A DNA stretch of 64,000 bases from Actinopolyspora halophila DSM 43834. GTDB taxonomy: Bacteria > Actinomycetota > Actinomycetes > Mycobacteriales > Pseudonocardiaceae. Under the pieces are notes generated by a model. That model saw only the letters and a list, made by a program, of their open reading frames with translations. It was not told the origin of the DNA and searched no databases. Numbering within the stretch: position 1 is the stretch's first letter; every line of letters begins with the position of its first letter. Position numbers and translations under genes: made by a program. Where the stretch lies: NCBI RefSeq assembly GCF_000371785.1, contig NZ_AQUI01000002.1:248001-312000 (forward strand). Direction: 5' to 3'. Shown here piece after piece: positions 19,392-30,787 of the stretch.

Positions 19392-19742
19392 TCGAGGTTG
19401 TCCCGCGGAACCGCCCGAGCAAACCGAGCCGATGCGAAACCTCGGACAGGAACTCCCGAGAAAGGGGTACCGCCCAACGCAAGTGCTCTGAGCCTGGGTT
19501 GTCGGCCCCGCCGGGGCCGGAACTTCCAGGAGAAGGCACCGCTCCAACGCAAGTGCTTACGAGCCTGAGCACCCGGCACCGCCGGGGGTTCTCAGTCTCG
19601 GGTCTCGCGAGGACGGTCCCGACGTTGTGTAGGACGCTACCCGATGTCGGGGCACCCGCAGCGAGACCCCGACCGAGGTTCCCCCACGGAACCGCCCGAG
19701 CAAACCGAGCCGCGCACTCTTCCAAAGAAAGGGGAACCGAGG
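19392..19742. other. Intra-operon gap with repeat modules C, C and A
   Basis: This 351-bp gap inside the rightward arm carries two linker modules C (about 19449-19494 and 19519-19565) and one family-A inverted repeat (about 19575-19690). No gene is supported. The last bases AAAGGGGAACCGAGG hold the ribosome binding site of the isomerase. Confidence 0.7.
19575..19690 (-). repeat. Family-A inverted repeat, copy A3
   Basis: The core at 19618-19651 pairs CCCGACGTTGTGTAG with CTACCCGATGTCGGG around the loop GACG. The outer arms GGTCTCGC and GCGAGACC are complementary, where most copies have CTCTCGC and GCGAGAG: a second compensatory position. Preceded by two C modules in tandem. Confidence 0.85.
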
Positions 19743-20204
19743 ATGACAATCACCGTCGCGGTCGCCGCGGACAACGCGGGCTTCGAACTCAAGCAGCTGA
19801 TCGCCGAACAGCTGAGAGCCGACGAGCGGGTCGGCGAGGTGCTGGACTACGGCGTGCACGACACCTCCGACGACCGCGCCTACCCCCGTCTCGGGCTGAC
19901 GGCCTCCGAGGCGGTGGCCCGCGGTGAGGCCGAGCGAGGCGTGCTGATCTGCGGAACGGGGATCGGCATGTGCATCTCGGCCAACAAGGTGGAGGGAGTG
20001 CGTGCCACCGTCGCGCACGACTCCTACTCGGTGGAACGTTCGATCAAGTCGAACGATTGCCAGATACTGACCATGGGGTCCAGGGTTGTAGGTTCCGAAC
20101 TGGCCAAACGCCTGGTCGACGAGTGGTTGGGCTACTCCTTCGACCCGGCCTCCGCGAGCGCGGAGAAGGTCGCCTACATAACCGACTACGAACACCAGCA
20201 CTGA
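19743..20204 (+). CDS. RpiB/LacA-family sugar-phosphate isomerase
   Basis: A 153-aa isomerase. VAADNAGFELKQLIAE matches the RpiB N-terminus, and GVLICGTGIGMCISANKVEGVRA carries the active-site Cys and anion-binding loop. The family interconverts ribose-5-P and ribulose-5-P; operon members in mycobacterial threitol and erythritol clusters isomerise erythrulose-4-P to erythrose-4-P. Sitting after the DhaK-type kinase, the latter is the more likely reaction. ATG 19743 follows AAAGGGGAACCGAGG. Confidence 0.93.
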   Translation: MTITVAVAADNAGFELKQLIAEQLRADERVGEVLDYGVHDTSDDRAYPRLGLTASEAVARGEAERGVLICGTGIGMCISANKVEGVRATVAHDSYSVERSIKSNDCQILTMGSRVVGSELAKRLVDEWLGYSFDPASASAEKVAYITDYEHQH

Positions 20205-20242
20205 ACGGAGGGTCGTCGGCTCGCTCTGCGTGGCGGTGCGGG

Positions 20243-20348
20243 TGGCGGAACCTCTCGCGGGCTCTCGCTCCGGCGAGGCCCGACATCGGGTAGCGGCCTA
20301 CACAACGTCGGGCCTTCCTCGCGAGAGCACCACGGGAGAACCCGCGGC
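20243..20348 (+). repeat. Family-A inverted repeat, copy A4
   Basis: The core at 20279-20312 pairs CCCGACATCGGGTAG with CTACACAACGTCGGG around loop CGGC. Outer arms GCGGAACCTCTCG...GCTCTCGCTCC and GCGAGAGCACC...GAGAACCCGC pair. Located between the isomerase and the dehydrogenase genes of the same operon, reversed relative to A3. Confidence 0.85.
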
Positions 20349-20453
20349 GGCGCCGATTGCGTAGGTGGCGCTTCGGCGCAGGCGCCGAAGGACAAACCCG
20401 TACAACCGAACGAACACACCTGACGAAGCATCATCAGAGACGGGGAATCGATC

Positions 20454-21506
20454 GTGCGCGTTTTGGCTGCGGGTGACAACTTCGTCGGCCCCGACCTGCT
20501 CGAGTCGGCACTGCGGTCCGAGCTGGAAGGGTCCGAGCAGGAGGATCCGGAGGTCGGCAAGCTCAAGCTGCCCTGGCCGGTGGAGCCCTTCGGCCCGGTC
20601 GGCGGGGTCGAGGAGGCCAGCGGAAGCGAAGAGCAGATAATCGAGGCCGTCGACGGCGCCACGGCCTGCGTCACGCAGATGGGGCCGTTCACCGGGCGGG
20701 TGTTCGCGGCGGCCCCCCAACTCGAGCTGGTGTCCGTGTGCCGGGGCGGTCCGATCAACGTCGACCTGGCCGCGGCCACCGAGGCCGGGGTCTCGGTCAC
20801 CTACGCCCCGGGGCGCAACGCGGCCGCGGCCGCCGAGTACGCGGTCGGCATGATCCTCGCCGCGCTGCGCCGCATCCCCGATTCGGACTCCGAGCTCAAG
20901 AAGGGGAACTGGCGCGGGGACTTCTACGCCTACCCCGAGGCCGGGGTCGAACTGGAGGGCGGCACGGTCGGGCTCGTCGGCTACGGGGCCATCGGCAGCC
21001 GGGTGGCGCGGGTGCTGCGCGCCTTCGGCGCCGAGGTGCTGGTAGCCGACCCCTACACCGAGCCGGACCGGCTCCGCGCCGACGGTGTCGAACCGGTGGA
21101 GCTGGAGAGCATGCTGCCGCGCTGCTCGGTGGTGAGCCTGCACGCCAGGCTCACCCCGGAAACCAGGAACCTGCTGGACGCGGGGAAGCTCGACCTGCTG
21201 CCCGAAGGAGCCGTGCTGGTCAACACCGCCCGCGGCGGGTTGCTCGACTACACCCCGCTGCCGGGGCTGCTGCGCTCCGGCAAGCTCGGTGCGCTGGCGC
21301 TGGACGTCTACGACGTGGAACCGCCGCCCGCCGACTGGCCGCTGCACGACGCGCCCAACGTCATCACCACCCCGCACCTGGCCGGGGCCACGCGGCAGAC
21401 CGCGCATCGTGCGGCCGGGATCGTCGCGGCGGAGGTCGGCCGTTTCGCGCGGGGTGAGCAGCAGGCGCATCTCGCCAACCCCGACGTTCGAGGGATCCGG
21501 ACATGA
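20454..21506 (+). CDS. D-isomer-specific 2-hydroxyacid dehydrogenase
   Basis: A 350-aa NAD-dependent dehydrogenase. The NAD-binding domain has VGLVGYGAIGSRVARVL; catalytic residues are the Arg in VNTARGGLLD, the Glu in LDVYDVEP, and the His in TTPHLAGAT. It resembles phosphoglycerate dehydrogenase-type enzymes without an ACT domain. Its substrate in the polyol cluster is unknown; a C4 hydroxyacid or its phosphate is a guess. GTG start at 20454. The stop overlaps the FGGY gene start by four bases. Confidence 0.9.
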   Translation: MRVLAAGDNFVGPDLLESALRSELEGSEQEDPEVGKLKLPWPVEPFGPVGGVEEASGSEEQIIEAVDGATACVTQMGPFTGRVFAAAPQLELVSVCRGGPINVDLAAATEAGVSVTYAPGRNAAAAAEYAVGMILAALRRIPDSDSELKKGNWRGDFYAYPEAGVELEGGTVGLVGYGAIGSRVARVLRAFGAEVLVADPYTEPDRLRADGVEPVELESMLPRCSVVSLHARLTPETRNLLDAGKLDLLPEGAVLVNTARGGLLDYTPLPGLLRSGKLGALALDVYDVEPPPADWPLHDAPNVITTPHLAGATRQTAHRAAGIVAAEVGRFARGEQQAHLANPDVRGIRT

Positions 21507-22954
21507 TCACCGCTGTCGACATCGGAACTTCGCTCACCAAGGCCGCCGCCTTCGACGACGGTGGCCGGGTGCTGGCCGAGGCCAGCAGGAACTCCCACCT
21601 GGAGTACTACGCCGACGGGCGGGTCGAGCAGGACCTCGACGACGTCGTGTCCACGGTCGCCGCCGTGGTCCGCGAAGTGGGGGAGCGCACCGGCACGCGC
21701 CCGCGCGCCGTCGCCCTCACCGGACAGGGGGACGGGCTGTGGCTGCGGGACGCCAGCGGCAGGCCCGTGCGCAGCCCGATCTCGTGGATGGACGGCCGTG
21801 CGGCGCCGGTCGTGCGGCAGTGGCAGCGCGACGGGGTCAGCAGGAGGGTCTACGAACGCACCGGCAACGGGCTCTTCCCGGGATCCCACGGGCCACTGCT
21901 GGCCCACCTCGCCGATCACGAGCCGGAGTCGCTGCGCGCCGCCGATGTGGCGGGCTACTGCGTCGACTCCGTGCTGCACGTGCTGACCGGGGAGATCAGC
22001 GTCGACGCCTCGGACGCCTCGGTCCCGTTCCTGGACGCGGACACGCGCTGCTACGACGACGCGGCGCTGGAGGCCTGCGGGCTGGCCGAGTACAAGCACC
22101 TGCTGCCGAAGCCGGCCAAGCCGCGTCAGATCTTCGAACTCGACTCCAACGGGGCCGAGCTGCTCGGGCTGCCCGCCGGTACACCGGTCACGGCCGGCCC
22201 TTTCGACCTGCCCGCCTGCGCGGTCGGGGGTGGGCTGAACGAGTTCGGCGACGGGTTGTTGACCGTGGGCACCACGCTGGCCTGCCAGGTGCTGACGGAG
22301 GTGGGCAACCGGCGCTGGCAGGACGAGCCCTCCGGGATGTGGTTGTGCACACCCGAGGAGAACCAGCTGCTGCACGGCATGCCCGCCATGGTGGGCACGG
22401 CCAGCCTGGACTGGGTGCTGGAACTGCTCGGGCTGGGCATCGACGATCTGGGGGCGCAGCTGGAGGCCAGCCCGCCCGGGGCCAACGACGTCTCGGCGCT
22501 GCCGTTCCTGGCGCCAGGCGGGGAGCGTTCCCCGTTCGTGGACCCCGGGGCCAGCGGTCAGTTGAGCGGGGTGCGGATCGGGACCACGCGCGCCGACGTG
22601 GTGCGGGCGGTCTGCGAGAGCGTCGCCTACGCCGCGCGGCACTGCTTCGAGGCGGCCGGTCTGGACGGCAAGCTGGTGGCCTGCGGCGGCGGGACGCGTT
22701 CGCACCCGTGGGCGCAGGTGTTCGCGGACGTGCTGGGGCAGCCGCTGCACCTGCCGGACGATCCGGGTATGGGAGCCAGGGGTGCGGCGGTCACGGCGGC
22801 ACGGGCCCTGGGTGATCCGGTGGATTCGGGCGAGTGGACGCTGCCGACGCGGGAGGTGACCCCGAACCCGGAGGTGCGGCAGCGCTACGAGGACGGATAC
22901 CACCGCTACCGCCAGACCCTGGCGAGCATGCGCGAGCTGTGGCGCTCGGGCTGA
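21503..22954 (+). CDS. FGGY-family carbohydrate kinase (rightward arm)
   Basis: A 483-aa kinase with ITAVDIGTSLTKAAAFD at the N-terminus, QGDGLWLRD and the substrate segment PISWMDGRAAPVV, then GLLTVGTTLACQVL and LVACGGGTRSHPWAQVFADVLGQPL in the C-terminal domain. This looks closest to erythritol/ribitol/xylulose-type kinases. It is translationally coupled to the hydroxyacid dehydrogenase. The cluster thus has two FGGY kinases and one DhaK kinase, which implies more than one substrate. Confidence 0.92.
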   Translation: MITAVDIGTSLTKAAAFDDGGRVLAEASRNSHLEYYADGRVEQDLDDVVSTVAAVVREVGERTGTRPRAVALTGQGDGLWLRDASGRPVRSPISWMDGRAAPVVRQWQRDGVSRRVYERTGNGLFPGSHGPLLAHLADHEPESLRAADVAGYCVDSVLHVLTGEISVDASDASVPFLDADTRCYDDAALEACGLAEYKHLLPKPAKPRQIFELDSNGAELLGLPAGTPVTAGPFDLPACAVGGGLNEFGDGLLTVGTTLACQVLTEVGNRRWQDEPSGMWLCTPEENQLLHGMPAMVGTASLDWVLELLGLGIDDLGAQLEASPPGANDVSALPFLAPGGERSPFVDPGASGQLSGVRIGTTRADVVRAVCESVAYAARHCFEAAGLDGKLVACGGGTRSHPWAQVFADVLGQPLHLPDDPGMGARGAAVTAARALGDPVDSGEWTLPTREVTPNPEVRQRYEDGYHRYRQTLASMRELWRSG

Positions 22955-23041
22955 TCGAGGTTCGACGGCGGTGCCGGTTATCGGGGTGGTTTGTTTCGGC
23001 GCCGCCGCCCCGAGAAGCCGTAGCGGCCCGCCGCGGTGAAC

Positions 23042-23093
23042 GGGCTCGCGGCCGGAAGTGTCGGCATCCCTCGTCCGGGCAGGCCGCGAGCCC
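23042..23093. terminator. Hairpin after FGGY kinase
   Basis: A 12-base perfect stem, GGGCTCGCGGCC (23042-23053) with GGCCGCGAGCCC (23082-23093), encloses a 28-base loop. It lies about 90 bases after the FGGY stop and before the peptide locus, so it probably separates the two transcription units. Confidence 0.5.
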
Positions 23094-23186
23094 CTCCTCC
23101 CGATGACGCTGCCCGCGGCCCTGATCGCGGGTGCGTCCCGGCGCTCCCCGAGTTTCCGGATCCCCCGGTGACGATTCCTCGGGTTT

Positions 23187-23237
23187 CCCGGAAAATTTTT
23201 CTTCGCTTGGGTTCGTTTTTTTCGGGAAATTTTCCCG
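23187..23237. promoter_or_regulatory. AT-rich promoter/operator with perfect palindrome
   Basis: CGGGAAATTTTCCCG at 23223-23237 is a 15-bp palindrome with seven-base arms. CCCGGAAAATTTTT about 36 bases upstream resembles half of it. Such AT tracts stand out against the surrounding ~70% GC and suggest a regulator-bound promoter region for the peptide gene. Confidence 0.45.
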
Positions 23238-23386
23238 GTGAGTCGTTGCTATTCCTTTCGTGTTCGATCCTCTGGGCCGTAAGCGTGTTTTCCTGTCACC
23301 TCGAGGGATGATTCCGCGTTCTTCCGTTGTGCTCCCGGTGCGTGTGCTGGCGTAATTGCCCACGCACCGCAGGAACTCGGCGGGAA

Positions 23387-23395
23387 GGGAGGTGA
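23387..23395 (+). promoter_or_regulatory. Strong ribosome binding site of the peptide gene
   Basis: GGGAGGTGA five bases before ATG 23401 is almost the full anti-16S complement. It is among the strongest sites in the window, and supports translation of the very short frame that follows. Confidence 0.85.
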
Positions 23396-23400
23396 GCACG

Positions 23401-23487
23401 ATGCGCGTCATCACGATCCAGGCCGCTCCCGTTGTCCGGAACGACCGGAAGAACCATCCGTACTTCTGGAAGTGGAACCCCACCTGA
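23401..23487 (+). CDS. 28-aa peptide, putative RiPP precursor
   Basis: A short gene encoding 28 residues, beginning MRVITIQAAPVV and ending NHPYFWKWNPT. The middle is charged (RNDRK). It has no Cys and no Ser, only two Thr, and four aromatic residues packed in the last nine positions. ATG follows a near-perfect ribosome binding site. A strong hairpin lies six bases after the stop, and a SagB/ThcOx-type dehydrogenase begins 90 bases after the stop. This is the classic layout of a RiPP precursor: leader, aromatic core, attenuating hairpin, modifying enzyme. I do not recognise the peptide family; function is inferred. A regulatory leader peptide is the main alternative. Confidence 0.65.
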   Translation: MRVITIQAAPVVRNDRKNHPYFWKWNPT

Positions 23488-23493
23488 TGAATG

Positions 23494-23533
23494 TTCGTCG
23501 CGGGGCGGATCACTCGATCCGCCCCGCGACGAA
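23494..23533. terminator. Strong hairpin between peptide and SagB genes
   Basis: An 18-base perfect stem: TTCGTCGCGGGGCGGATC (23494-23511), loop ACTC, GATCCGCCCCGCGACGAA (23516-23533). There is no T-tract. Placed between a very short gene and its probable modifying enzyme, it could act as a partial terminator or mRNA stabiliser giving excess peptide over enzyme, as in many bacteriocin and lanthipeptide operons. Confidence 0.85.
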
Positions 23534-23577
23534 TACCGATGACTCCGCGATCGAATTCGGAACCTCCTGGAGCACGC

Positions 23578-24693
23578 ATGCGCTTGCGCCGTCGTCATGG
23601 ACTGGTCTGTTATTGGTACGACGGGTCCTTCGTCGTCCACCCCCACCCGGGTGGTGACCCACTCGCCCTTCATCCGGCCGTGGCCGAGATCCTCTCCGCC
23701 TTCTCGGAATGGACCGAGCAGGCGGAAGCGGCCGAGAACCTGAACCACCTCTCCGCGGAAACGGTCGAGCAGGCGGTGGAGGAGTTGCGCGGGACAGGGC
23801 TGCTGTTGGCCGCCGATGCTCCCGAGGCGGCGGCCGATGAGCGGTTCGAGCGACAGTGGTCGACCTGGAGCCCGGAGGCCGCCTTCTTCCACTACGCGAC
23901 CCAGGACGTCAAGTATCCCGAGAACGACCCCGCGAGGGAGTCCCCGGCGAGTCGGGACCCGCAGGTCCCCTTCGTGCTGTTCACCGGCTATCCGCGGGCC
24001 GATCGGGTCCTGTTGCCCCGACCGCCGTCCACGGAGCTGCGCGCTCCCTACGAGCAGGTGCTCTTGGCACGCCACACCTGCCGGGACTACACGCCGGACC
24101 CGGTGCCGCTCTCCACACTGAGCACGTTGCTGTCCACGACGTTCGCCCCCGTGGACTTCATCGACTGCGGGCGGGGCGCGCTGTTCCGCCGCACGAGTCC
24201 CGCGGGCGGGGCGCGGCAGGAGCTGGACGCCTACGTGGCCCTCCGGAACGTGACCGGGGTCGAGCCGGGAGTGTACCACTACAACCTGCGGGAGCACTCG
24301 TTGGAACTGCTCTCCGAGGGGTTCACCTCCGCGGACGCGACCCACTTCTGCGCGGACCAGGAGTGGGCGGGTGGGGCGGCCTTCCTGGTGGTGCTCGGTC
24401 TCGTGGTGGACCGGCTGCTCAGCAAGTACCCCACGCCGCGTTCCTACCGCGTGAGCCTGCTCAACGCGGGGCATCTCGGTCAGACCTTCGCGTTGACCGC
24501 CACCGCGCTGGGGCTCGGGCCCGCGCAGACGGGTGCCTTCCACGACTCGTCGGTCGCCGAGCGGTTGGGGTTGGACAACATCGGCAGGACCCCGCTCTAC
24601 GTCCTCGCCTCGGGGTATCCGGCCGCCGAACAGCCCGCGGCACCGCCTGCCGCCGGGCTGTCGACGTTCCGGGAGACGACGTTGGAAGGGTGA
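23578..24693 (+). CDS. SagB/ThcOx-family FMN dehydrogenase with wHTH-like N-terminus
   Basis: A 371-aa nitroreductase-fold flavoenzyme. The C-terminal two-thirds show the FMN-site pattern: LLARHTCRDYTPDPVPLSTL (near 160), YHYNLREHSLELLSEG, then the PTPRSYRVSLLNAGHLGQ segment with ALGLGPAQTGAF. The first ~80 residues (LVCYWYDGSFVVHPHPGG, LHPAVAEILSAF, VEQAVEELRGTGLLLA) look like a winged-helix/PqqD-type peptide-binding domain. SagB enzymes oxidise azolines in azole-containing peptides, but no YcaO cyclodehydratase is present and the candidate peptide lacks Cys and Ser, so another oxidation is likely. ATG 23578 behind CTGGAG. Confidence 0.88.
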   Translation: MRLRRRHGLVCYWYDGSFVVHPHPGGDPLALHPAVAEILSAFSEWTEQAEAAENLNHLSAETVEQAVEELRGTGLLLAADAPEAAADERFERQWSTWSPEAAFFHYATQDVKYPENDPARESPASRDPQVPFVLFTGYPRADRVLLPRPPSTELRAPYEQVLLARHTCRDYTPDPVPLSTLSTLLSTTFAPVDFIDCGRGALFRRTSPAGGARQELDAYVALRNVTGVEPGVYHYNLREHSLELLSEGFTSADATHFCADQEWAGGAAFLVVLGLVVDRLLSKYPTPRSYRVSLLNAGHLGQTFALTATALGLGPAQTGAFHDSSVAERLGLDNIGRTPLYVLASGYPAAEQPAAPPAAGLSTFRETTLEG

Positions 24694-24701
24694 CGCAGGG
24701 T

Positions 24702-24727
24702 CTCCCAGTTTCGCCTAGAACTGGGAG
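24702..24727. terminator. TCCCAGTT-type hairpin, copy 3
   Basis: CTCCCAGTTTCGCC-TAGAACTGGGAG has a nine-base stem and lies nine bases after the SagB stop and five before the convergent DoxX stop. It is the best conserved of the five copies and probably ends transcription from both sides. Confidence 0.75.
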
Positions 24728-24731
24728 TTGT

Positions 24732-25187
24732 TCACACCCCGACGCTCTCGCTCGCGCGCTCCTGGCCGGAGCGGGAGCCGGAGCCGCTCAGCGCCCTGTC
24801 CAGCGCGAACCTTCCGCCGTTGAATCCGAGGGCCAGGGCGACGACCGCGAGCACGAGCACGTACTCGTAGCCGCCGCCGGAGGAGAAGAAGCCCTGGCCG
24901 AGGTGCACGAGCACGAGCGCGCCGAGCATGTTCAGCGCCAGCAGCACCCCCGCGACCGGCAGGGCGAGTCCGAGCAGGAGCGCGACTCCGCCGAGCGTCT
25001 CGACCAGCGCGGCCACCCAGGCCGCGAGCCCGGGGGCGGGGATGCCCATTCCGGCGAACGAGTCGGCCGTCCCGCTGATCCCCCACTGGACGAACTTCTG
25101 CATCCCGTGCGCGATGAACACGATCCCGGCCACCAGCCTGGCCAGCAGCAGTGCCAGGTCGCGGATCTGGGGTGGCAGTTGTGGCAT
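24732..25187 (-). CDS. DoxX-family membrane protein
   Basis: A 151-aa four-helix membrane protein. LLLARLVAGIVFIAHGMQKFVQWG is the typical DoxX first helix, and LVETLGGVALLLGLALPVAGVLLALNMLGAL and YEYVLVLAVVALALGFNGGRFALD follow. DoxX proteins are linked to redox and thiol stress in actinobacteria. ATG 25187 follows AAGGAG. It is divergent from a MarR regulator, with two palindromic operators in between, so it is probably the regulator's target. Confidence 0.9.
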   Translation of the reverse strand: MPQLPPQIRDLALLLARLVAGIVFIAHGMQKFVQWGISGTADSFAGMGIPAPGLAAWVAALVETLGGVALLLGLALPVAGVLLALNMLGALVLVHLGQGFFSSGGGYEYVLVLAVVALALGFNGGRFALDRALSGSGSRSGQERASESVGV

Positions 25188-25280
25188 GACTACTCCTTCC
25201 GAGCGTCTTACTTCGGGGCCCGGTCCGGTGTGTCGTCCGGTCCGGGAGGGGCGGGGTCGGGGCCCGCCGGAGCGTTTGTG

Positions 25281-25294
25281 GTTCAAATTTGAAC
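25281..25294. promoter_or_regulatory. MarR operator 1
   Basis: GTTCAAATTTGAAC is a perfect 14-bp palindrome in the gap between the divergent doxX-like and marR-like genes. Confidence 0.8.
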
Positions 25295-25312
25295 TAGTCC
25301 CACGCTACCGGG

Positions 25313-25330
25313 TTGTTCAAATTCGAACAA
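25313..25330. promoter_or_regulatory. MarR operator 2
   Basis: TTGTTCAAATTCGAACAA is a near-perfect 18-bp palindrome starting 17 bases before the MarR start codon. Its centre matches operator 1 with one change. The 34-bp spacing places both sites about three helical turns apart, fitting autoregulation plus control of the DoxX gene. Confidence 0.8.
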
Positions 25331-25346
25331 CCGCTAGGATGAGTGC

Positions 25347-25808
25347 ATGACGCAACCACGTTGGCTCGACTCCGGGGAGATGGCGGCCTGGAACGCGTTC
25401 CTGGAGGCCAGCCATCGCGTGGGCAGGCGCGTGGAGCACCAGCTCCGCGAGCAGGAAGGGCTCTCCCACCCCCAGTACGAGATACTGGTGTGGCTGGCGG
25501 AGGCCCCCGACCGCGAGGTGCGGATGACCGAGCTGGCCACACAATTGGTGACCTCCAAGAGCGGGGTGACCTATCAGATAGGCAAGCTGGAGAAGGCCGG
25601 TCTGGTGCGCCGTCGCTCGTGCCCCGGGGACGACCGCGGTGTCTTCGCGGTGCTCACCGACCGGGGGCTGGAGAAGCTCCGCAGTGCGGCCCCCGGGCAT
25701 CTCGAAGCCGTGCGTTCCTCGTTGATCGACCTGCTCACCCCCGAACAGCGCGAAGCGCTCCGCGACGGTCTGGACGCGGTTAACCGCGGCCTGGGCTCCG
25801 CGGATTGA
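25347..25808 (+). CDS. MarR-family transcriptional regulator
   Basis: A 153-aa winged-helix repressor. The DNA-binding core reads MTELATQLVTSKSGVTYQIGKLEKAGLVRRRSCPGDDRGVFAVLTDRGLE, with the wing at DDRGVF. Dimerisation helices lie at both ends. The twin GTTCAAATTYGAAC palindromes in its promoter are likely its own binding sites, and the divergent DoxX gene the second target. No Cys is placed as in OhrR-type redox sensors (one Cys in the wing region only). Confidence 0.92.
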   Translation: MTQPRWLDSGEMAAWNAFLEASHRVGRRVEHQLREQEGLSHPQYEILVWLAEAPDREVRMTELATQLVTSKSGVTYQIGKLEKAGLVRRRSCPGDDRGVFAVLTDRGLEKLRSAAPGHLEAVRSSLIDLLTPEQREALRDGLDAVNRGLGSAD

Positions 25809-26148
25809 GAACTCATAGTGGAACTTTGCTGAGCCGCCTCGGGTAGCCGTCACGTGAGTCGGTGCCTTGCTGCGTTGGAGGGCACCTCGAGTAGCGGCCT
25901 ACGCCACGTGCCCTCCCGCCTTGCAATGCATCCGATTCACGCACCGGAGCTTCTCGCTCTGCGCAGGCTGAAGCGCCCGCGTCGGACGAAGCCTTCTGCC
26001 GGAAGTTCTGAGTGAGGTTCTCCGTTTTGGTTCCCCGTGCGTTGACCAACTGTCACGCTATTGGTATAAACCAATTGATCGTTCGATGCAACAGGTGTCG
26101 GGGCCGGCACGACGTGTGACCAGCTTCGTGCACAGTGGAGGGTTCGGC
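25809..26148. other. Intergenic region with family-B repeat
   Basis: A 340-bp gap carrying one family-B inverted repeat (about 25843-25946) and a linker module C (about 25966-26010). The last ~60 bases are less GC-rich (CTATTGGTATAAACCAATTG near 26060) and contain GGTATAAACC, a short palindrome that may form part of the promoter of the next gene. Confidence 0.55.
25843..25946. repeat. Family-B inverted repeat, copy B1
   Basis: The apex GTAG-CGGC-CTAC (25891-25902) is flanked by complementary arms, including GTGCCTTGC...GGAGGGCACC on the left and GTGCCCTCC...GCCTTGCAATGC on the right, and ends CACGTGAGTCGG / CCGATTCACG. Different arms from family A, but the same four-base-loop apex. Confidence 0.75.
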
Positions 26149-27741
26149 ATGGACATCGCGTTGCGCGGAGCCCGCGTCGTGGACGGAACCGGATCCCCCG
26201 AGTACCGCGCCGACGTGGGAGTCCACAACGGACGGATCGCGGAGGTCGCCGCGCCGTTGAGCCTGAGCGCGCGCCGCGTGATCGACGCGTCCGGACTCGT
26301 GCTCGCTCCCGGGTTCGTCGACATGCACTCCCACTCCGACCTGCGGGTGCTCTCCGAGCCGGAGCACCTGGCCAAGGTCTCGCAGGGCGTGACCCTGGAA
26401 GTGCTCGGACAGGACGGGTTGTCCTACGCGCCCGTCGACGAGCGAACCCTGACGAGTCTGCGCGCCCAGCTCGCGGGCTGGAACGACGACCCGCCCGGCC
26501 TCGACTGGAACTGGCGCAGCGTGGCCGAGTACCTGGACCGGCTCGACGAGGGGATCGCGGTCAACGCGGCCTACCTGGTTCCCCAGGGCACCCTGCGCAT
26601 GCTGTGCGTGGGCAGCGAGAACCGCCCCGCGAGCGAGTCCGAGTTCGCCGAGATGCGCCGGGTGCTGGACCGCTCGCTGCGCGAGGGCGCGTTCGGCATG
26701 TCCGCCGGACTGACCTACACGCCGGGAATGTTCGCGGACCGGGCCGAGCTGGAAGCGCTGTGCGCGGTGACCGGGCAGCGCGGCGGGTTCTTCTGCCCGC
26801 ACCACCGCAGCTACGGCGCAGGGGCGCTGGACGCCTACACCGAGATGATCGAGGTCGGCGCGGCGGCGGGTTGCCCGCTGCACCTGGCGCACGCCACGAT
26901 GAACTTCGAGGTCAACGCGGGGCGGGCCGGTGAGCTGCTGACCCTGCTGGACGACGCGATCGACTCGGGCGCCGACATCACGCTGGACTCCTACCCGTAC
27001 CTGCCCGGCTGCACGGCGCTGCACGCGCTGCTGCCGAGCTGGGCCGGGGCGGGTGGCGTCGAGGCCACCTTGGAACGGCTGCGGGACCCCGCGCTGCGTG
27101 CGCGGATCCGCGAGGTCCTGGAGGTGGAGGGCTCCGACGGTTGCCACGGCGTTCCGGTCGACTGGGACGGCATCGAGATCAACGGGGTGCGCCGTCCCGA
27201 GGTCAACGCTCACCTGCTGGGGCGCACCGTGGGCGAAGTCGCCCGCGCGGAGGGAAAGCAGCCCACCGAGCTCTACCTGGACGTGCTGCTGTCCGAGCGG
27301 CTCGGCAGCTCCTGCCTCATGCACGTCGGCCACGAGGAGAACGTGCGGGCGATCATGCGCCACCGGGTGCACACCGCGGGCAGTGACGGGCTGCTCGTCG
27401 GTGACAAGCCGCACCCGAGGGCGTGGGGGACCTTTCCCCGCTACCTGGCGCACTACACCCGCGAGCTCGGGATCCTCGGTCTCGAGGAGTGCGTGAACCA
27501 CATGACCGCCCGGCCCGCCGACCGGCTCGGACTGCCGGACAGAGGTCGCATCCGGGAGGGCAACGTGGCGGACCTGGTGCTCTTCGACCCGGACGGGGTC
27601 GTCGACACGGCGACCTTCGACGATCCGCGCAGGCAGGCAGCGGGGATCCCGTACGTGCTCGTCAACGGCGTGCCCGTCATCGACGAGGGCGAGCGCACCG
27701 ACGCCCTGCCGGGGCACGCGCTGCGGCACCGCTGTCGCTGA
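26149..27741 (+). CDS. N-acyl-D-amino-acid deacylase-like amidohydrolase
   Basis: A 530-aa metal-dependent hydrolase of the D-aminoacylase branch. The start is ATG 26149 behind GTGGAGGG. Features: IALRGARVVDGTGSPEYRADVGVHNGRI; metal motif FVDMHSHSDLR; later metal or acid residues in FFCPHHRSYG, LHLAHATMN and CLMHVGHEENV; and the C-terminal sandwich GRIREGNVADLVLFDPDGVVD. Likely deacylates N-acyl-D-amino acids or hydrolyses a similar amide in the cytoplasm. No neighbouring gene indicates the substrate. Confidence 0.88.
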   Translation: MDIALRGARVVDGTGSPEYRADVGVHNGRIAEVAAPLSLSARRVIDASGLVLAPGFVDMHSHSDLRVLSEPEHLAKVSQGVTLEVLGQDGLSYAPVDERTLTSLRAQLAGWNDDPPGLDWNWRSVAEYLDRLDEGIAVNAAYLVPQGTLRMLCVGSENRPASESEFAEMRRVLDRSLREGAFGMSAGLTYTPGMFADRAELEALCAVTGQRGGFFCPHHRSYGAGALDAYTEMIEVGAAAGCPLHLAHATMNFEVNAGRAGELLTLLDDAIDSGADITLDSYPYLPGCTALHALLPSWAGAGGVEATLERLRDPALRARIREVLEVEGSDGCHGVPVDWDGIEINGVRRPEVNAHLLGRTVGEVARAEGKQPTELYLDVLLSERLGSSCLMHVGHEENVRAIMRHRVHTAGSDGLLVGDKPHPRAWGTFPRYLAHYTRELGILGLEECVNHMTARPADRLGLPDRGRIREGNVADLVLFDPDGVVDTATFDDPRRQAAGIPYVLVNGVPVIDEGERTDALPGHALRHRCR

Positions 27742-27784
27742 AGCGCCGGTCCGCGGTCGACGCCCCGGCACGGCGTGGCCGAGA

Positions 27785-27982
27785 TCAGCCCCGGTCGTAC
27801 TCGCCGGTCTTGAGCCGGTCCACGAATCCGGTCCAGGCCTGCGGGTGCACGGCGAGGGTGCCGCCCGAGCGGTCCTTGGTGTCGCGGATGCCGACCGCCT
27901 CGGAGGTTAAGGCGACTTCGACGCAGTTGGTCTTCTGGTGCGAGCGGCTGGACTTTCGCCAGGTGACGTTGCCGGTAATCAT
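27785..27982 (-). CDS. DUF397 protein
   Basis: A 65-aa protein with the family hallmark WRKSSRSHQKTNCVEVAL and a C-terminal WTGFVDRLKTGEYD. DUF397 proteins are the small partners of XRE regulators with DUF5753 in actinomycetes; some act as toxin-antitoxin-like or developmental switches. The gene overlaps the regulator stop by four bases (ATGA), so the two are coupled. Confidence 0.93.
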   Translation of the reverse strand: MITGNVTWRKSSRSHQKTNCVEVALTSEAVGIRDTKDRSGGTLAVHPQAWTGFVDRLKTGEYDRG

Positions 27983-28830
27983 TGCTGTGTCTCCATGTGC
28001 GTGGCGTAGTACTCGACGATCGTGCGCGATTCGTCCTGGGGAAGAGCTAATTCGCGCAACGTGGCGACGGCTTCCCGATAGGCTTCGACGTCACGCATAC
28101 CGTAGAGAAAGGCGGCCGAGCTGTAGTGTTCCAGATGCACGATCGGTGCCGCTTTGGCGAACTCGTACAGGACGAAAGGCCCCGCGTGCGCCGGGTGAAC
28201 GATCTGCTCCCGGCCGGGCAGCACCCGCACCGAGATGTTCGGCTCCTCGTCCATTTTGAGCAGATGACGAAGCTGCTCGCCCATGACCGAATGTCCTCCG
28301 GTGGGCTGCTGTAGCGCCTCCTCGGCGATGACGGCTGTCAGCTGCGGCCCGTTCGGTTTGGTGATCGTGTCGCGCCTGCCCAGGCGCAGCATGACCCGCT
28401 TCTCCGTCTCCCCGGACGAGATTCCCGACATCACCGTTCGCGTGTAGTCGGCGGTTTGGAGCAGCCCGGGCACCAGTAGCGGTGACACGTCGGTGATGGC
28501 TGTCGCGGATCGCTCGCACTCGAGCAGCGTGGTCAGCTGCTGTTCGACGCCAGGCACCCCGGAGGTGAGCCAGTTCGGTTCGCCGACCTCGTGGGCGAGG
28601 GCGAGGATGCGCTCGTGCTCGGCGTCGCTGACCCCGAGAGCAGTGAGGTAGTCGGCCACTCGACTGGCGTCGGGTACAGCGTCGCCCGTCTCGTAGCGGG
28701 AGACCGTCATGTGGTGCGTACCGAGTGCATGTGCCAGTTGGCGAATGCTCCTCTTCGCCCGTTGACGGCATTCACGCAGCTCAGCACCCAGAGCTCGTGC
28801 TTGCGGGCTTCCTCGTGCGCTGCGGGCCAT
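27979..28830 (-). CDS. XRE-family regulator with DUF5753 domain
   Basis: A 283-aa protein. The N-terminal helix-turn-helix (about 8-70: LRECRQRAKRSIRQLAHALGTHHMTVSRYETG) is followed by a DUF5753 domain (about 95-270; LLVPGLLQTADYTRT, VIAEEALQQPTGG, FVLYEFAKAAPIVHLEH). Such regulators pair with DUF397 proteins and control development and antibiotic genes in streptomycetes. ATG 28830 is selected over 28848 as AGGATGTG sits just before it. Divergent from the zinc-finger-like gene with an inverted repeat in between. Confidence 0.92.
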   Translation of the reverse strand: MARSARGSPQARALGAELRECRQRAKRSIRQLAHALGTHHMTVSRYETGDAVPDASRVADYLTALGVSDAEHERILALAHEVGEPNWLTSGVPGVEQQLTTLLECERSATAITDVSPLLVPGLLQTADYTRTVMSGISSGETEKRVMLRLGRRDTITKPNGPQLTAVIAEEALQQPTGGHSVMGEQLRHLLKMDEEPNISVRVLPGREQIVHPAHAGPFVLYEFAKAAPIVHLEHYSSAAFLYGMRDVEAYREAVATLRELALPQDESRTIVEYYATHMETQQ

Positions 28831-30104: not shown

Positions 30105-30205
30105 TTTCATTGTTTTCACTCGAAAGAGTTGTTGATCTTTGTTTTCGACGCGCCGATGATTCTCCCGGAAGTGTTCGAGTGACAACGGGAAAGGACCGGA
30201 TTCCG

Positions 30206-30787
30206 GTGAAGTCGAAAAAGCGGATCGCCCTGGTGCTCGCAGCCGCCTTCTCCATGGTCGGCGTCATGGGGGCAGGCGCGGGAGCCGCCGAGCAGGACGG
30301 ACAGCAGGGTCAGGCGCGGCCGCAGGCGCGTGAAGCGCAGACCTCGATCAACATGGACGAGCCCTACCACCTCTACAACCGCAGCGCTCACCTGTTCATG
30401 ATCACCAAGGGCTGGAACACCGCGGAGAACGGCGTTCTGGATCTGTGGCACACGCACCAGACCAACGTGAACCGCCTCCAGGAGCAGTGGAAGTTCCTCT
30501 CCACCGCTCACCACGGCGTGGCCCGCATCAAGAACGTCGGCTCGGGCCTGTGCCTGCAACCGAACAACCAGGACTCGCTGCGGCACGTGGTGCAGAAGCA
30601 GTGCGACAGGGGCGACCGCGAGCAGTGGTGGTCGGTGCGCAAGGACGAAGGACTGCGCATCTCGCCGTTCAACAACGAAAACCTGGTGATGAACCCCTAC
30701 CAGGCGGCGCTGCCCTCGCACGACATCGTGCTGCACAAGGACGTGGACAGCCTCTCCCAGCGGTGGAGTGCCGTGCCGGTCGACTGA
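30206..30787 (+). CDS. Secreted ricin-type beta-trefoil lectin-like protein
   Basis: A 193-aa secreted protein. GTG 30206 with AAAGGA ten bases upstream; signal peptide with KSKKR, a hydrophobic run and cleavage near AGA-AEQ. The mature part begins with a Gln-rich linker and forms one beta-trefoil: YHLYNRSAHLFMITKG, EQWKFLSTAHHGVARIKNVGSGLCLQPNN (a QxW plus CL pattern of ricin B repeats) and QWWSVRKDEGLRISPFNNENLVMNP. The likely role is binding glycans outside the cell. Cytolethal distending toxin A/C subunits have a similar single trefoil, but no toxin partner is near. Confidence 0.78.
   Translation: MKSKKRIALVLAAAFSMVGVMGAGAGAAEQDGQQGQARPQAREAQTSINMDEPYHLYNRSAHLFMITKGWNTAENGVLDLWHTHQTNVNRLQEQWKFLSTAHHGVARIKNVGSGLCLQPNNQDSLRHVVQKQCDRGDREQWWSVRKDEGLRISPFNNENLVMNPYQAALPSHDIVLHKDVDSLSQRWSAVPVD

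Follow-up and report, generated by a model that had tools for sequence, protein, structure and literature searches.

The peptide gene, the hairpin and the enzyme

The window, by which we mean the whole 64,000-nt stretch of Actinopolyspora DNA analyzed here, carries on its forward strand a very short gene followed by a hairpin and by the gene of a SagB-type enzyme. The features of this locus are as follows:

23387..23394, + strand: Shine-Dalgarno (SD) sequence GGGAGGTG of the precursor gene, 6 nt ahead of the ATG, read from the sequence
23401..23487, + strand: putative precursor peptide gene, 28 aa, with a conserved leader and a variable tail
23494..23533, + strand: perfect 18-bp hairpin between the precursor and enzyme genes, from inverted repeat search and RNA fold
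23578..24693, + strand: SagB-type FMN dehydrogenase, 371 aa, from TIGR03605, Pfam nitroreductase and PDB profile matches
23578..23826, + strand: RRE-type winged-helix domain (residues 1-83), predicted from an AF2 model and VIA-align
24067..24618, + strand: nitroreductase-fold oxidase domain (residues 164-347, Pfam range) with R165/R169 and the K283-Y284 motif

The ATG-started CDS at 23401-23487 (+) encodes the 28-aa peptide MRVITIQAAPVVRNDRKNHPYFWKWNPT, which we divide into a leader of approximately residues 1-16 (MRVITIQAAPVVRNDR) and a tail of approximately residues 17-28 (KNHPYFWKWNPT), the border being our own choice. The tail contains one Thr, no Cys and no Ser, and the peptide, read in frame, matched no NCBIfam or Pfam family. 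The arms of the inverted repeat (23494-23511 and 23516-23533) are 18 nt long, are 100% complementary and enclose a loop of 4 nt, and the RNA fold has a z of -5.9 against shuffles. The short peptide gene with its strong ribosome binding site, the perfect hairpin and the SagB-type enzyme, on which the initial annotation of this DNA was built, are real and confirmed in the sequence.

The enzyme scored 106.4 bits against the NCBIfam SagB domain TIGR03605 (cut-off 78.4) and 77.6 bits against Pfam nitroreductase (cut-off 23.5), its PDB profile matches were CyaGox/ThcOx, BmdC and McbC, and a search of its own genome gave a single match at E<=1e-3. By the curated cut-off it is a SagB-family enzyme, and by its own cut-off it does not fall in TIGR04511; nor is the locus classed as a TOMM/LAP pathway. 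The columns of R165/R169 and K283-Y284 are conserved in alignment A1, and the alignment with BmdC was read beside the published account (PMC8795117, in part). Residues 1-83, refolded alone, gave an AF2 pLDDT of 91.3, and the order of elements in the model (E2-5, E9-14, E17-22, (E29-31), H33-40, H48-54, H60-73) is that of an RRE, defined as a winged helix with the order beta-beta-beta then alpha-alpha-alpha (PMC12710340, in part). The top VIA-align matches of the domain were TigE, MccB, MibB, NisB and further RiPP proteins, rows 1 to 23 being all RiPP proteins. The first 83 residues are predicted to adopt an RRE fold, which agrees with the winged-helix domain proposed for the N-terminus at the outset; the oxidase half of the full-length AF2 model was of low quality (mean pLDDT 62.6), and only the N-terminal domain of the models is trusted.

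Precursor family, distribution and genomic context

In other genera and families, too, the enzyme gene is preceded by homologous ORFs, with the leader MRxIxIxARxVxRxDR and an aromatic tail that varies. In a close group of 20 peptides (alignment A4) the pattern is MRxIxxxARPVVRxDR plus a variable tail, with M1, R2 and R16 invariant, and the mixed synonymous codons at R2, R13 and R16 (18 sequences counted) indicate that the leader is conserved at the protein level. Against its two nearest relatives the window copy shows 1 synonymous/0 nonsynonymous and 2/1 differences in codons 1-18, and 0/3 and 0/6 in codons 19-28; at wider distances nonsynonymous codon differences exceed synonymous ones in the leader too. 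The initial annotation had made its proposal depend in part on purifying selection on the peptide, and this can be seen at the few sites of the leader and is not clear beyond it. A conserved leader joined to a fast-changing core is the pattern of a RiPP precursor, here read from few sites and small numbers. For residue counts the tail border was set, again by choice, after [DE]R, and F, W and Y then make up 65 of the 255 residues of the close-group tails vs 3 of 300 in the leaders (first residue excluded). Every one of the 20 tails has at least one F, W or Y and 15 have Trp, and they share no invariant residue. The original remark on the missing Cys and Ser is right for the window copy and fails for its relatives, since C, S or T occurs in 17 of the 20 close-group tails, with 1 Cys among the 255 residues. 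Within the last 12 residues F, W, Y or H is found in 37 of 38 distinct peptides and is missing from one, a count that has no null of its own.

A more distant branch has even shorter peptides, many of them ending in SNHPA, TNHG, NHPTL or HHPGR, and its tails hold mostly His. Of the distant-branch peptides the profile made from the window's family (see below) picked up only that of L058, at noise level (E 0.44); homology of this branch to the close group has, as judged by profiles, no support beyond noise. At one locus (L062) a single SagB gene is preceded by a pair of similar precursor ORFs in tandem, MDIVIIEDREVVAHHPSL and MDIVIIEDSEALAHHQGL; both have an SD of their own, and they stop 327 and 161 nt ahead of the enzyme match. 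Two distant SagB relatives (L063 and L064) have acidic precursors upstream with the Cys-aromatic tails ACLCYEAP and ALACFDQVG, and stems of 19 and 16 bp. Stems were counted in 38 of 40 intergenic regions (L028 and L029 were removed as duplicates of the L027 peptide): at least 12 bp, with G-U allowed, were found in 27, with 0.28 expected from dinucleotide shuffles, and 24 of these 27 begin 3-27 nt past the precursor stop. In the other 11 regions the hairpin is absent or shorter than 12 bp.

The epidemiology of the pair was addressed in 17 loci, to which more were added from searches of 297, 394 and 394 genomes (partly overlapping sets). Of the relatives retrieved at more than about 35% identity almost every one has a short ORF ahead of the enzyme gene, with L010, L030 and L052 as exceptions. 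We built a profile on the window's family (11 peptides) and searched with it 5204 ORF segments from 43 loci outside the profile. Its top 11 matches (E<=0.023; the twelfth had E 0.43) all came from other families: ten are frames lying just ahead of the enzyme gene, and in the remaining one (L052) the precursor frame continues into a decayed enzyme. Nine distinct loci are represented, as L007/L048 and L008/L053 each seem to be a single locus counted twice. With the full precursor profile, and 27 candidates scored per genome, 13 of the 297 family genomes matched at E<=1e-6, the matches ending 75-135 nt before the enzyme; these 13 are the set of 14 genomes in which the enzyme search matched at E<=1e-100, with G177 taken out, and they are partly circular positives because the peptides found are also in the profile. 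Weak matches (5e-5 to 0.1) were given by 67 further genomes, the strongest (G151, 5e-5) being a frame without a SagB motif in its 3-kb locus; the other 66 (0.002-0.1) were taken for noise. Strong precursor matches occur only beside the enzyme among the 297 family genomes, and the absence of orphan precursors is well, though not fully, supported.

An ATG-started short ORF with a strict SD lies upstream in 38 of 53 enzyme loci vs 5 of 60 control ORFs, the controls being long high-GC3 ORFs from the same loci and not annotated genes. Four of the loci failing the strict rule (L008, L025, L049 and L053) nevertheless have a precursor, which starts with GTG or follows a weaker SD, and 11 of the 53 are without an intact precursor, namely L010, L011, L030 (where the start of the enzyme has gone with it), L041-L047, which form a SagB branch of 31-33% identity, and L052. 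The enzyme frame of L056 has an in-frame stop near its start. The decayed cassette of L052 (1159-2142) consists of a precursor frame without a stop ahead of a truncated enzyme in which homology is lost later. In the 31-33% branch L041, L045 and L047 share a similar ORF of 39-40 aa (acidic start, Trp, Pro-rich end) with a weaker SD; it stops 80-86 nt short of the enzyme match and may be another type of precursor. L042, L043, L044 and L046 have in common a GTG-started 23-aa ORF, MS[ED]AVHEWVA.RFKEL.GAGKGR, that ends 7-13 nt before the SagB match.

Within the genus an FGGY kinase gene lies upstream in nine of ten Actinopolyspora genomes. It is followed by precursor and enzyme in four (G000, G150, G188 and G038) and leads straight to DoxX, with neither cassette gene, in four others (G165, G117, G072 and G134). 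G177 has lost both precursor and hairpin along with the first ~94 enzyme residues, apparently in one deletion, and what is left of the enzyme has 75% identity; G097 has neither a kinase nor an enzyme match. Precursor and enzyme come and go as a unit at one site within Actinopolyspora. The pairing asserted in the initial annotation has held up, with the two genes conserved and co-occurring across genera and families, and the tests named there as able to refute the proposal have left it standing.

The ten window neighbors scanned encode an isomerase, a 2-hydroxyacid dehydrogenase, an FGGY kinase, DoxX, MarR, an amidohydrolase, a regulator, a lectin, an SDR and an arginine deiminase, and no NRPS domain was found among them. 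The RpiB/LacAB-type isomerase, 2-hydroxyacid dehydrogenase and FGGY kinase genes stand in a row at 19677-22954, likely a sugar-acid catabolic run, which L002 and L003 also have upstream of the cassette; at 30125-30787 a ricin-type beta-trefoil lectin domain occurs in a small protein whose N-terminus apparently suggests secretion. In a comparison of the window with L002-L011, covering ORFs of at least 80 aa up to 6 kb away, only six ORF pairs outside the enzyme span crossed genera. Among these loci L004 (4912-5607, -) and L008 (7200-7742, +) share a GNAT acetyltransferase (42% identity over 206 aa, both copies matching Pfam GNAT), upstream and divergent in the former and just downstream in the latter; it is in no other of 74 loci save the duplicates L022 and L053, and may perhaps be an optional tailoring or self-protection gene. 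The pfl cluster also carries a GNAT gene (PMC12636437, in part). A near-identical gene (87-94%, five frame pairs) is present in L005 (12.6-13.1 kb) and L011 (4.2-5.6 kb), not in register. A Pfam scan of ten neighbors in seven loci (L004-L010) gave no repeated function, an M43 peptidase in L007 and an MFS protein in L008 being singletons. No protease or transporter is conserved beside the cassette across genera in the loci compared, in line with the lack of both next to the window pair reported at first.

Relation to known SagB-type systems

The absence of YcaO, first remarked for this locus, extends to the whole genome (5.35 Mb, 99.75% complete), where no PF02624 match was obtained at E<=0.001 (control matched 5/14), and this makes ordinary azoline oxidation very unlikely. 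Membership of the azole/TOMM (linear azol(in)e peptide) class was rejected for the lack of a YcaO match, and the window tail does not have the Cys/Ser/Thr-rich core of linear azol(in)e peptides. An MNIO partner for the enzyme was likewise rejected, as the genome gave no PF05114 match (control matched 2/14). The putative TIGR04509/04510/04511 peptide system is similar in two respects: the enzyme matches TIGR04511 (SagB_rel_DH_2), though membership was rejected at 143.9 bits against a cut-off of 240, and the peptides of its distant relatives end in N-H motifs, which presumably link them to TIGR04509. Of what we take to be the partners of TIGR04511, the TIGR04510 cyclase had no match in the genome (control matched 8/14, none above cut-off) and the TIGR04509 peptide had no match anywhere; a scan of 13 of the peptides gave 0 NCBIfam matches.

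Several characterized enzymes share parts of this arrangement. In the microcin C7 pair MccB/MccA the difference lies in the enzyme type, MccB being a ThiF-type adenylyltransferase. Cyclodipeptide oxidases (albonoursin synthase, NdasCDO) resemble the enzyme in their nitroreductase-fold FMN chemistry, a C-alpha/C-beta desaturation of aromatic and other residues, but they form two-subunit filaments, take cyclic dipeptides as substrates, have a different active site and, to our knowledge, have neither an RRE nor a precursor. One of them, the C-alpha/C-beta dehydrogenase albonoursin synthase, is remotely related to our enzyme by fold. The active site and mechanism of cyclodipeptide oxidases differ from those of nitroreductases (PMC11760959, in part). 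The azoline oxidases SagB, McbC and ThcOx/CyaGox are of the same TIGR03605 family, with an aligned FMN site and the K-Y motif, but act after a YcaO cyclodehydratase on Cys/Ser/Thr heterocycles; since the K-Y motif is found in them as well it is no pointer to desaturation and does not separate the candidate chemistries. ThcOx also carries RRE copies, and BmdC, the bacillamide oxidase, combines an RRE-like domain with a SagB-type oxidase in which Arg145/146/149 and Tyr260 align with our enzyme, but its substrate is an NRPS-bound thiazoline and its RRE is called a remnant (PMC8795117, in part). RREs on RiPP dehydrogenases may be vestigial (PMC7470986, in part); in the loci compared no other gene that could recognize the leader is conserved with the pair.

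The closest parallel is PflD/PosD of Pseudomonas, in which a nitroreductase domain acts on a RiPP precursor without YcaO (PMC12636437 and PMC7726476, both in part). The nitroreductase domain of PflD makes Z-dehydro-Phe, and its authors describe nitroreductases without a YcaO association as rare, uncharacterized and able in principle to make other dehydroamino acids (PMC12636437, in part); an Os17 protein that we take for PosD is annotated as SagB-type and mcbC-like (PMC7726476, in part). PflD/PosD differs in being fused to an MNIO and in belonging to a larger cluster with an HEXXH enzyme, a GNAT, transporters and a longer precursor, whereas the Actinopolyspora enzyme is standalone and has its own RRE fold; a dehydroamino acid product is proposed for it by analogy. 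No description of the cassette was found in our searches of openly licensed PMC papers.

Proposed function and alternative readings

We regard the peptide gene and the sagB gene as almost certainly a genuine precursor-enzyme pair, and on balance we favor, by a little, a minimal RiPP-type cassette of two genes, whose SagB dehydrogenase, an FMN enzyme guided by the leader, would oxidize the aromatic tail, with desaturation the likeliest step. Genes and domains are those expected of a RiPP system; the modification itself we infer. The short precursor, with a leader (MRxIxIxARxVxRxDR) resembling a beta-strand at its N-terminus, would be synthesized at a high level, and the hairpin after its stop, perhaps a partial terminator or an mRNA-protecting stem, would probably end or protect part of the transcripts, by which the enzyme would be kept at a lower level than the peptide. 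The leader would be bound by the N-terminal RRE of the enzyme, and the FMN nitroreductase (SagB/McbC) domain would then dehydrogenate the tail, the likeliest step being C-alpha/C-beta desaturation of at least one aromatic residue (Trp, Tyr or Phe) with a loss of 2 Da each; in the distant 'NHP' branch His would perhaps be desaturated. FMN would be re-oxidized by O2 and the product finished by an unlinked protease and exporter.

That the enzyme oxidizes the tail seems to us highly probable; that it does so by desaturation rather than by another oxidation we would put just short of an even chance. Desaturation of the tail aromatics is favored because the genome is without YcaO and MNIO, the aromatic tail has no Cys or Ser, PflD offers the nearest tested chemistry and albonoursin synthase is a remote relative. 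Its main rival is the same cassette with a different oxidation, such as a Trp-Trp or Tyr-Trp cross-link, indole oxidation or C-terminal oxidation, which we consider unlikely. Closely spaced aromatics, as typical of cross-linked RiPPs, are present in many tails (WKW, WIW, WWW, HWHW, WQWRWRW, YYWY), but some tails, such as that of L056 (LLYK), have just one aromatic residue, His prevails in the distant branch, FMN nitroreductases perform two-electron oxidations, and no cross-linking SagB enzyme was found in our searches of openly licensed PMC papers.

Three readings that do without a modified peptide are much less probable. A Trp-rich short ORF followed by a strong hairpin, in most cases shortly past the stop, does resemble an amino-acid attenuator, and the peptide could be a regulatory leader whose Trp codons and hairpin control sagB; this we hold to be improbable, as conservation lies in the N-terminal leader and at the protein level with mixed synonymous codons, the tails exchange Trp for Tyr, Phe or His, the enzyme carries a predicted RRE fold and window positions 20000-28000 gave no Rfam match. 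A role of the hairpin in gene expression is compatible with both the cassette and the attenuator. Slightly less credible still is an ordinary azoline oxidase acting on azolines made elsewhere (e.g., in an NRPS siderophore of the nocobactin kind), the peptide then playing no part: the SagB family and the K-Y motif fit it, and SagB genes adjoining NRPS siderophore clusters exist (PMC7413640, in part), but the genome has no YcaO match, the scanned neighbors have no NRPS domain, precursor and enzyme co-occur and are lost together, and the peptide has no Cys or Ser. A length of only 28 codons would suit a chance frame, an explanation we give next to no weight in view of homologues across families, strong SDs, leader conservation and the control comparisons.

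Returning to the two-gene cassette, the new precursor-enzyme class announced in the initial annotation is plausible but unproven, and we see a fair chance that the cassette is one; its novelty is tempered by PflD, a YcaO-free nitroreductase already reported to make dehydro-Phe on a RiPP precursor (PMC12636437, in part). Whether there is a widespread actinobacterial class, in which a YcaO-free standalone RRE-SagB installs dehydro-aromatic (or cross-linked aromatic) residues in the fast-changing tails of 18-34-aa precursors, the distant His-ended (NHP, HHP) branch included, we judge to be evenly balanced. SagB enzymes are known as makers of azoles, and the chemistry here is probably not azole formation. 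A cassette of two small genes is directly testable. If the proposal is true, a standalone leader-guided SagB without YcaO would be among the smallest natural peptide-modifying systems, with naturally varied substrates, and its two components might serve as a biocatalyst for making peptides that contain dehydro-tryptophan, -tyrosine or -histidine.
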